Below are positions 25,166 through 25,957 of a stretch of 62,567 nucleotides of DNA, piece after piece. The translations under genes and the position numbers were made by a program. The notes under the pieces are model-generated. The model was not told the DNA's origin. It was given only the letters and a program-made list of their open reading frames with translations, and made no database searches. The number at the start of each line of letters is the position of its first letter. Within the stretch, counting starts at the first letter, position 1. Origin of the DNA: a virus; IMG/VR virus record IMGVR_UViG_3300042924_005627, positions 1 to 62,567 of that record; one strand, written 5' to 3'.

Positions 25166-25195
25166 TTGACTATATAGGATGAATAGGGGTATAAT
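25166..25195 (+). promoter_or_regulatory. Sigma70-type promoter of the riboswitch-like unit
   Basis: TTGACT at 25166-25171, 18-base spacer, TATAAT at 25190-25195. Transcription would begin just before the CGTTCATC segment at 25206 and could run to the terminator at 25931-25957, making a self-contained four-gene unit. Confidence 0.7.
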
Positions 25196-25205
25196 AATCC
25201 CCTAA

Positions 25206-25459
25206 CGTTCATCCTATGACTAAAGCACTTTTGCTTTTAGCATGGGTTCCACTTCTTTCTATTTCTACGCCACAACTTGCACAAACTAATAAAGTTACAA
25301 TAAGTTGCGACGCAGCGTGGGAACTTATGGACATCGTTAAAAACGACGATGTAGTAGACCAAAGAAAAGAAGACCGATTGCTATTAGAACTCCGAAAGGA
25401 TGTTTTGAAACTTAAGTGCTAAACAATTCAATAGGACGGAAGTAAGCCGACTCGGAACG
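25206..25459 (+). promoter_or_regulatory. glnA/Downstream-peptide riboswitch-like element 1 (split)
   Basis: The 5' part CGTTCATCCTAT (25206-25217) and the 3' part ATAGGACGGAAGTAAG ... GGAACG (25431-25459) can pair as P1 (CGTTC/GAACG) and P2 (TCCTAT/ATAGGA). GGACGGAAGTA is, from memory, the hallmark core of glutamine-binding glnA/Downstream-peptide aptamers. Unusually, a whole 68-codon gene lies in the P2 loop and its ATG is in the 5' P2 strand. Fold is by eye; ligand binding is untested. Confidence 0.45.
25216..25422 (+). CDS. Small exported protein
   Basis: 68 residues with a clear signal peptide: MTK, a hydrophobic core (ALLLLAWVPLLSISTP) and a likely cleavage after QLAQ or nearby. The mature part of about 45 residues is charged, with two Cys that could form a disulphide. 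Its start codon overlaps the 5' strand of the riboswitch-like element, so translation may depend on the fold. Confidence 0.6.
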   Translation: MTKALLLLAWVPLLSISTPQLAQTNKVTISCDAAWELMDIVKNDDVVDQRKEDRLLLELRKDVLKLKC

Positions 25460-25462
25460 GAT

Positions 25463-25631
25463 CGTTCATCTATGGAAACACTCATTCTAACGTGCTTACA
25501 AGCACAGTTAATTTCTGGAAGAGTTCATCAACAAGAACTCCCTAGACAAGCAAAGAATGATTTAATTTGGGAGATTAAACAAATCTCACCAAAAGAGTGT
25601 AAGATAGACGCAAAAGCCGACTGAAGGAACG
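25463..25631 (+). promoter_or_regulatory. glnA/Downstream-peptide riboswitch-like element 2 (split)
   Basis: A second copy: CGTTCATCTAT (25463-25473) and ATAGACG ... CTGAAGGAACG (25604-25631) can form P1 (CGTTC/GAACG) and P2 (TCTAT/ATAGA). GAAGGAACGC is the typical 3' end of these aptamers, but the core is GACGCAAAAG rather than GACGGAAGTAG. A 50-codon gene fills the loop. GAACG-GAT-CGTTC (25455-25467) also links copies 1 and 2 as a tight hairpin. Confidence 0.4.
25472..25624 (+). CDS. Unknown protein, 50 aa
   Basis: METLILTCLQAQLISGRVHQ begins in the 5' strand of riboswitch-like element 2 and ends in its 3' strand. A Leu-rich N-terminus and basic middle; two Cys. No ribosome-binding site stands out upstream, consistent with structure-dependent translation (inference). 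Confidence 0.5.
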   Translation: METLILTCLQAQLISGRVHQQELPRQAKNDLIWEIKQISPKECKIDAKAD

Positions 25632-25663
25632 CTCTTTAACCTAAACAACTAAGGAGAACCCTA

Positions 25664-25828
25664 ATGTCTAAAGTCGTATACCGTGGTGTTGAATATGACA
25701 CCAACGACCGCCCAAATCAAACTTTGAAAAGAGAACCTCATGTAGAAATCTATCGTGGAACAATGTTCTGGGTAGATGAAAATGGAAACAAATTCTCTAT
25801 GGAAAAGTCGGGAGGTAAAGTAAAATGA
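25664..25828 (+). CDS. DUF4278-like small protein
   Basis: 54 residues. VVYRGVEYDTN at the start and IYRGTMFW in the middle are the two YRG segments of the DUF4278 type known from cyanobacteria and their phages; function unknown. AAGGAG at 25651 is its ribosome-binding site. It is the first gene after the complete riboswitch-like region, hence the best candidate 'downstream peptide'. Confidence 0.65.
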   Translation: MSKVVYRGVEYDTNDRPNQTLKREPHVEIYRGTMFWVDENGNKFSMEKSGGKVK

Positions 25829-25926: not shown

Positions 25927-25930
25927 AGTA

Positions 25931-25957
25931 AAGGAGGGTTTACACCCTCTTTTTTTT
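25931..25957 (+). terminator. Rho-independent terminator
   Basis: GAGGGT-TTAC-ACCCTC stem (25934-25949) followed by eight T. It closes the promoter-riboswitch-gene unit that starts at 25166. Confidence 0.85.

Follow-up and report, generated by a model that had tools for sequence, protein, structure and literature searches.

What RNA is formed where the strands of a glutamine aptamer occur twice over in a few hundred bases, with small genes lying between them? The window analysed here is the whole 62,567-nucleotide stretch of the virus record IMGVR_UViG_3300042924_005627, in which T4-like cyanophage genes (S-adenosylmethionine decarboxylase, 2OG-Fe(II) oxygenase, ThyX and PhoH) flank the site. 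A first-pass annotation of the letters had proposed that the 45 bases at 25431-25475 fold by themselves as a compact, circularly permuted glutamine aptamer that gates the gene starting at 25472. Our comparison with relatives leads to another arrangement, in which two glutamine aptamers are nested one in the other and carry open reading frames in their loops. Judged from sequence comparison, we give this reading a probability of about 0.85.

Layout of the element

A short cyanophage mRNA would begin almost directly with the element. Below, S1 and S2 are the bases that follow ACG in the first and second core, and F1 and F2 those that follow the first and second GAACG. The outer unit would have the normal glutamine-I order, CGUUC - P2 - ACG(S)AAGUA - P3 - GAAG - GAACG(F), and the inner unit a circularly permuted one, GAACG(F) - short linker - CGUUC - P2 - ACG(S), with a P3 that continues the outer P3. 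As a whole the RNA would look like a dumbbell, two three-way junctions joined by their common P3, and both P2 loops would serve as optional docking places for small genes. The predicted parts are as follows.

25166-25195, + strand: sigma-70-type promoter, TTGACT, 18 bases, TATAAT, with 11 of 12 consensus matches and a predicted RNA start a few bases before the aptamer (promoter-like sites in the region number 3 against 2.4 expected from shuffles, no enrichment)
25206-25210, + strand: outer P1 5' strand CGTTC, pairing with 25627-25631; invariant, the outer topology being supported by S1:F2
25212-25217, + strand: outer P2 5' strand TCCTAT, pairing with 25431-25436 and holding the first bases of the ORF A start codon
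25216-25422, + strand: ORF A, a 68-aa two-cysteine peptide, beginning in outer P2 and lying inside its loop
25431-25436, + strand: outer P2 3' strand ATAGGA, pairing across ORF A
25436-25444, + strand: outer core ACGGAAGTA, S1 being G25439 and AGTA the 5' half of loop E; supported by S1:F2 and the Rfam alignment of relatives
25445-25452, + strand: shared P3 5' strand AG CCGA C T, with N = T25452 of the N:X pair
25455-25459, + strand: inner (permuted) P1 first strand GAACG, pairing with 25463-25467
25460-25462, + strand: linker GAT closing inner P1, with F1 = G25460 of the S2:F1 pair
25463-25467, + strand: inner P1 second strand CGTTC, supported by the nested alignment and RNAalifold
25469-25473, + strand: inner P2 5' strand TCTAT, pairing with 25604-25608 and holding the first two bases of the ORF B start codon
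25472-25624, + strand: ORF B, a 50-aa two-cysteine peptide that spans the inner P2 3' strand and core and stops at the TGA of GACTGAAG
25604-25608, + strand: inner P2 3' strand ATAGA, pairing across ORF B
25608-25616, + strand: inner core ACGCAAAAG, with S2 = C25611 and X = A25615
25615-25622, + strand: shared P3 3' strand A G CCGA CT, supported by the N:X pair and the nested alignment
25623-25632, + strand: GAAG (3' half of loop E), outer P1 3' strand GAACG (25627-25631) and F2 = C25632
25664-25828, + strand: downstream "YRG" peptide gene with its own Shine-Dalgarno sequence, the likely target; a YRG ORF is found in relatives
25930-25953, + strand: intrinsic-terminator-like hairpin, end of the unit

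The 443-base element at 25198-25640 folds far below its shuffles (z -5.65), which implies that the loop genes are themselves strongly structured.

Relatives

A BLAST search with a 551-base query matched 36 phage records, all of them Prochlorococcus, Synechococcus or other marine or cyanophage records, and many matched only over the conserved block 25431-25475. At the matching site the deposited record of S-CREM1 carries an annotated glnA riboswitch, given as 44.0 bits and 99 bases in the available text of PMC9964418. An Rfam search of the window gave no match at the element, the window's copy missing the gathering score of glutamine-I, and the likely reason is its 224-base P2 loop, which holds a whole gene.

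Relatives were parsed from two IMG/VR pattern scans and from named phages, which gave 128 elements among the matches listed, 2 duplicates and 2 contig-end elements being left out. Extra scans were aimed at F1 other than G and at S2 = G, and with their matches included there are 142 complete elements among the matches listed. Seven parts were left out, 4 at contig edges and three (L016, L041 and L069) without a parsed second core, and the triple array L065 supplies 2 of the 142, one of which is probably mis-associated. Among the named phages 8 of 10 regions fit the parser pattern; S-SRM01 and P-SSM2 miss it, and by eye both fit the nested pairs, S-SRM01 with CG/CG in place of AG/CU in its outer P3 and P-SSM2 with A-U in place of U-A as its first P2 pair. 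Compact members are about 100 nt long. Taken together, the comparison of these sequences shows the nested topology, the P2 helices formed across the ORFs, the coding of those ORFs, their start codons within P2 and the YRG gene downstream.

Lock pairs and the shared stem

Since CGUUC and GAACG each occur twice and never vary, P1 alone cannot separate a nested from a side-by-side arrangement, and the swap of strands rests on the S:F and N:X pairs, the loop-E halves and the linkers. Glutamine aptamers have a one-pair lock of S with F, which is described for both crystal structures in excerpts of PMC6698751 and has covariation support in those of PMC12510878. In the window the locks read side by side are mismatched (G-G and C-C), and read nested they are G-C and C-G. 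Counted as sequences and not as events, which are far fewer, the outer S1:F2 is a Watson-Crick pair (C:G and G:C) in all 142 listed elements, and the inner S2:F1 in 132 of them, with 2 more as G-U, as against 85 and 86 of the 142 for the side-by-side locks. Among the 122 listed elements that were not picked for variants the nested locks pair in 122 (outer) and 121 (inner), and the side-by-side ones in 78 and 78.

All four orientation combinations of the two lock pairs are present among the 142 listed, and the 11 listed elements with S2 = G all have C (9) or U (2) as F1. The 8 of the 142 listed without S2:F1 all have S2 = C and a 4-base linker with G at its third place. Shuffling of partners gave 72.9 expected pairs for the outer lock (142 observed) and 114.2 for the inner (132 observed), and in 5000 shuffles neither observed value was reached; for the side-by-side locks it was reached in 13 and 530 of 5000. 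A tree of the region downstream, weakly supported and built from 137 of the 142 elements, has S1 and F2 changing 5 times each and together, and S2 changing 7 times, with F1. Supported branches hold just 2 and 4 independent pairs, so that a sign test cannot reach 0.05; on them the nested partner moves alike in 2 of 2 and, on average, 3.9 of 4, and the side-by-side partner in 0.2 of 2 and 0 of 4. Scans for the rare S1 or F2 = A/T gave 24 + 15 stretches, none with a complete parsed element, and all 15 from the second scan are without an upstream CGTTCA within 420 nt.

The shared P3 gives a further pair, between N of AC[N]CGGAACG and X of ACGSAAA[X]G, which forms in 141 of the 142 listed elements and in three Watson-Crick types (U-A 91, G-C 29, A-U 20, and U-G 1), as compared to 93 and 92 of the 142 listed for the two side-by-side P3 alternatives. 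The 42 compact elements among the 142, those whose loops are both short and whose linker is below 8, were aligned (40 distinct rows); 99.1% of cells are paired under the nested structure, with a covariation of 0.255, and 90.0% under the side-by-side one, with 0.180. Both P1 helices pair in 40 of 40 rows of the nested alignment, outer P2 in 99.4% with compensatory changes and inner P2 in 100%; S2:F1 stands at 82.5%, since F1 is misaligned in some of the rows whose linkers are long. RNAalifold, without any structure given, returns outer P1, outer P2, inner P1 and inner P2. The Rfam model RF01739 aligns to L120 and L096 as an outer aptamer with a P3 insert of 56/57 nt (47.6/45.5 bits, cut-off 35), and 9 of 20 compact-type loci have at least one glutamine-family match above the Rfam cut-off. 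The lock pairs, the N:X covariation, the RNAalifold result and the P3 insert seen by Rfam argue together that the inner unit is a circular permutation.

Only the outer unit has the two halves of loop E, AGUA in the first core (the search pattern demanded AAGUA) and GAAG ahead of the second GAACG, where 103 of 121 listed elements have GAAG and 18 have AAAG, [GA]AAG being required by the parser. The inner unit has no GUA in its core ACGSAAAXG and no GAA before the first GAACG, where CNCG stands, and ligand binding by the inner unit is therefore doubtful. Energy models barely separate nested from tandem (-115.0 and -113.8, with -115.8 for the free fold) and do not favour the shared, mismatched P3, which gave -109.6 when forced. 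In L065 (6526-6790), the triple array, a further core has P3 strands AGUCA/UGACU, and the middle CCGA/CCGA is gone from both.

The P2 helices and the genes in their loops

In the window outer P2 joins CCTAT at 25213 to ATAGG at 25431 across ORF A, and inner P2 joins TCTAT at 25469 to ATAGA at 25604 across ORF B. Both helices covary among the 128 listed relatives, with short loops and gene loops alike, and 0 of 2000 shuffles reached the observed value. Loop lengths of the listed relatives are bimodal, 9-31 or 189-224 bases for the outer loop and 10-21 or 137-244 for the inner, and the 119 listed outer/inner combinations divide into short/gene (45), short/short (32), gene/gene (25), to which the window belongs with ORF A and ORF B, and gene/short (17).

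Long loops are closely fitted to their reading frames. In 44 of 44 listed relatives with a long outer loop the ORF starts in P2 and closes no later than where the core ends, and in 21 of these 44 its stop is the UAA within core GUAAG; with a long inner loop the ORF stops exactly at the core U(G/A)A in 70 of 72 listed relatives. At least two AUG bases lie in the P2 duplex at 44 of 44 outer and 57 of 72 inner listed ORF loci. At least two cysteines are found in every unique loop peptide listed (43 of 43 outer, 72 of 72 inner), and profile comparison with hhalign gives the ORF A and ORF B families as homologous (96.1%, E 3.7e-9). ORF A and ORF B of the window had no match in a Pfam search, and a PHROG search of the window's ORFs had no good match, the best being E 0.023 for ORF B. 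Loop ORFs are often gained or lost, with 27 and 29 changes on the downstream-region tree.

Some relatives depart from this layout. In L041 (around 2064-2330) a Shine-Dalgarno-like AGGAGG, instead of the start codon, lies within inner P2 (one case, with pairing by eye). In L049 (3531-4121, - strand) the inner P1 linker is 549 bases long and holds a 196-aa ORF that starts right after the first GAACG and ends at the conserved core stop; a Pfam search of this ORF gave nothing over the cut-off, and by eye only we take it to resemble GIY-YIG endonucleases. L131 seems to have a 44-base remnant of the L049 insert. The ends of the long linkers in L115, L131 and L049 stay complementary (by eye, ACCUA/UAGGU in L115).

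The downstream gene and a possible mechanism

A YRG ORF follows the element in 117 of 121 listed relatives, which are all 117 that have at least 120 nt remaining. The YRG gene of the window scores 20.3 bits against DUF4278 (Pfam PF14105), below the cut-off of 25.3, and PirA was considered. Within 25664-25828 there are two YRG motifs, and SSSPR-51 scores 17.5 bits, also below its cut-off. No expression platform was found for the YRG gene.

Glutamine would bind at least at the outer junction, and the ligand-contact bases given in the available part of PMC6698751 are, as read from the letters, present in both units. Binding would stabilise P1 and P2 and hide the start codons of the loop genes, and a ribosome on a loop gene would unfold the aptamer, as ORF B is read through the inner core. 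Binding and loop-gene translation would thus be mutually exclusive. The same switch may set the expression of the YRG gene, probably ON with glutamine, like the known glutamine riboswitches (Klaehn 2018, as reported in excerpts of PMC6698751). Taken by itself this gating has, in our estimate, about an even chance of being right. The complete picture, two interlocked glutamine junctions on one stem, the inner a true permutation, with genes as loops, where the ligand closes the start-codon helices and ribosomes translating the loop genes open up the sensor, falls slightly short of even odds. If it is true, sensor and message would be one molecule, and through the shared P3 the two sites would be coupled and the response made steeper.

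The compact fold and other alternatives

The compact aptamer of the first-pass annotation would have ATAGG/TCTAT as P2, ACGGAAGTAAG as core and GAACG-GAT-CGTTC as P1. Its letters are where it had placed them, with ATAGG at 25431-25435, ACGGAAGTAAG at 25436-25446, GGAACG at 25454-25459, GAT at 25460-25462, CGTTC at 25463-25467, TCTAT at 25469-25473 and the start codon at 25472, and in the window the P2 can form 5 pairs. The idea of a glutamine-type aptamer with swapped strands held up in its strand order and in its P1, for which the comparative evidence is good, and so did the link between a closing helix and the start of the 25472 gene, inner P2 holding the first two bases of its start codon; the P2 and the core that it named were wrong. 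Among the 128 listed relatives CGTTCA stands within 40 nt after GGAACG in 126, with linkers of 3 nt (67), 4 (50), 5 (6), 6 (2) and 21 (1), that is 3-6 nt in 125 of the 126, and the two that miss this limit (L049, L131) have longer linkers still ending at CGTTCA.

Pairing of ATAGG with TCTAT is at chance level in relatives (a mean of 2.62 contiguous pairs against 2.51 shuffled, with 201 of 2000 shuffles reaching the observed value; 3.16 against 3.29 in the canonical register, with 1849 of 2000). At least 5 pairs form in 7 of 98 unique combinations, and both arms pair far above shuffles with other partners. The actual inner core is ACGCAAAAG at 25608, and the half made of ATAGG and ACGGAAGTAAG belongs to the outer aptamer, so that the 45 bases combine the 3' portion of one glutamine aptamer with the 5' portion of a second one and are no self-contained unit. 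The 45-mer folds at -7.7 kcal/mol (z +0.49 against shuffles) into a structure other than the permuted one, which gave -5.4 when forced; on the long transcript it gave -109.2 against -115.2 for the GAACG/CGTTC hairpin alone. We regard the compact fold as practically excluded, and the permuted unit, which had been expected to be a rival of the long-range folds, lies within one of them instead.

Two ordinary glutamine-I aptamers in true tandem, with ORFs in their P2 loops, would fit the P1 strands and P2 helices equally well (both P1 at 100%, P2 at 99.4 and 100%). Glutamine doublets are moreover published (157 doublets and 4 triplets in the available text of PMC9481103), and L007 scores above the Rfam cut-off as two separate aptamers. 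This side-by-side layout was our first reading and was discarded on the lock pairs, which in the window would be G-G and C-C and which, like the P3 pairs, fail in more than a third of the listed elements; each unit would also be left with half of loop E only. We consider it very improbable. Two smaller proposals were dropped as well: GAACG-GAT-CGTTC as an anti-aptamer hairpin that switches both units off is superfluous once it is inner P1, and its strands never vary, and an anti-Shine-Dalgarno after the second GAACG (CUCUUU with AAGGAG in the window, by eye) is absent in L004 and others.

The remaining alternatives accept the nested fold and differ over what it does. Glutamine may bind at the outer junction only, the inner unit being a structural extension or ORF holder without ligand, as the missing GUA and GAA of loop E and the 10 of 142 listed inner locks that are not Watson-Crick suggest; yet the inner lock is kept in 132 of the 142 listed and compensates when it changes, and the contact bases named in the excerpts of PMC6698751 are present. 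This is a serious possibility, although we would bet against it. The structure may also regulate the YRG gene only, with the loop ORFs as passengers and no gating by ligand. The many changes of the loop ORFs on the tree, while the aptamer and the YRG gene persist (117 of 121 listed), speak for this, and the start codon within P2 in nearly all relatives speaks against it, as does the AGGAGG of L041 within inner P2 (one case, paired by eye). A passenger role for the ORFs is conceivable and to us about as doubtful as binding at the outer junction only.

Relation to known RNAs and occurrence

Glutamine-I (glnA RNA, RF01739) shares with the nested element its P1 CGUUC/GAACG, its P2, the ACG(S)AAGUA core, the loop-E halves, the S:F lock and a short P3, and the outer unit of compact relatives passes the Rfam cut-off; the differences are that here P3 opens into a second, permuted unit and that the P2 loop often carries a whole gene. 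Glutamine-II (Downstream-peptide RNA, RF01704), which sits upstream of short peptides in picocyanobacteria, has the same binding-site bases and a C:G lock as in most inner units (available parts of PMC2864571 and PMC6698751). Its CGUUC/GAACG, however, forms as a pseudoknot, the GAACG lying in the loop of a hairpin downstream, whereas here GAACG is upstream of CGUUC. Tandem glutamine riboswitches likewise have two adjacent units before one target gene, but in the available text of PMC9481103 (Sherlock et al. 2022) the 157 doublets are read as side by side, and the survey excluded tandems separated by ORFs or by gaps of more than 300 bases; here the units are nested, with ORFs in loops. Natural circular permutations listed by Eckert et al. 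2023 (excerpts of PMC10085705), hammerhead, twister, 5S rRNA and group II introns, likewise have functional strands in a cyclically changed order, and the list in those excerpts names no riboswitch aptamer.

The nested arrangement seems to be present in many marine and freshwater cyanobacterial viruses and not to have been described for riboswitches before. A literature search by title or abstract start, which did not cover all key papers, found no nested or permuted glutamine aptamer, and any "first" is therefore provisional. With this proviso the element would be without precedent in nature on two counts, as a circularly permuted riboswitch aptamer and as one whose loops carry whole genes. 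If our reading is right, the published cyanophage "tandem" glutamine riboswitches need re-reading, as a nested pair mimics a doublet to a covariance model. A riboswitch aptamer could then be permuted and serve as a modular joint, genes could live in the loops of a sensor, the locus would offer a natural two-site sensor with testable cooperativity, and nitrogen status, as glutamine, would be something that a common group of marine viruses senses while infecting its hosts.

On the host side RF01739 matched in 57 of 151 genomes of the Prochlorococcus group, and 0 of the 30 host loci examined were nested; the parser is narrow and also matched no ordinary host aptamers, so that this zero weighs little. 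A pattern scan of genome contigs for hosts gave, among the matches listed, chance-like hits except for one Prochlorococcus single-cell contig (L185, assembly AG-337-J18), which has a full nested element with both loop genes and is probably a phage contig. Other RNAs were also seen: in P-SSM4 a manA RNA precedes the element, and two contigs carry PhotoRC-II RNAs (L003 1019-1204; L008 11262-11350; L020 5813-5907).
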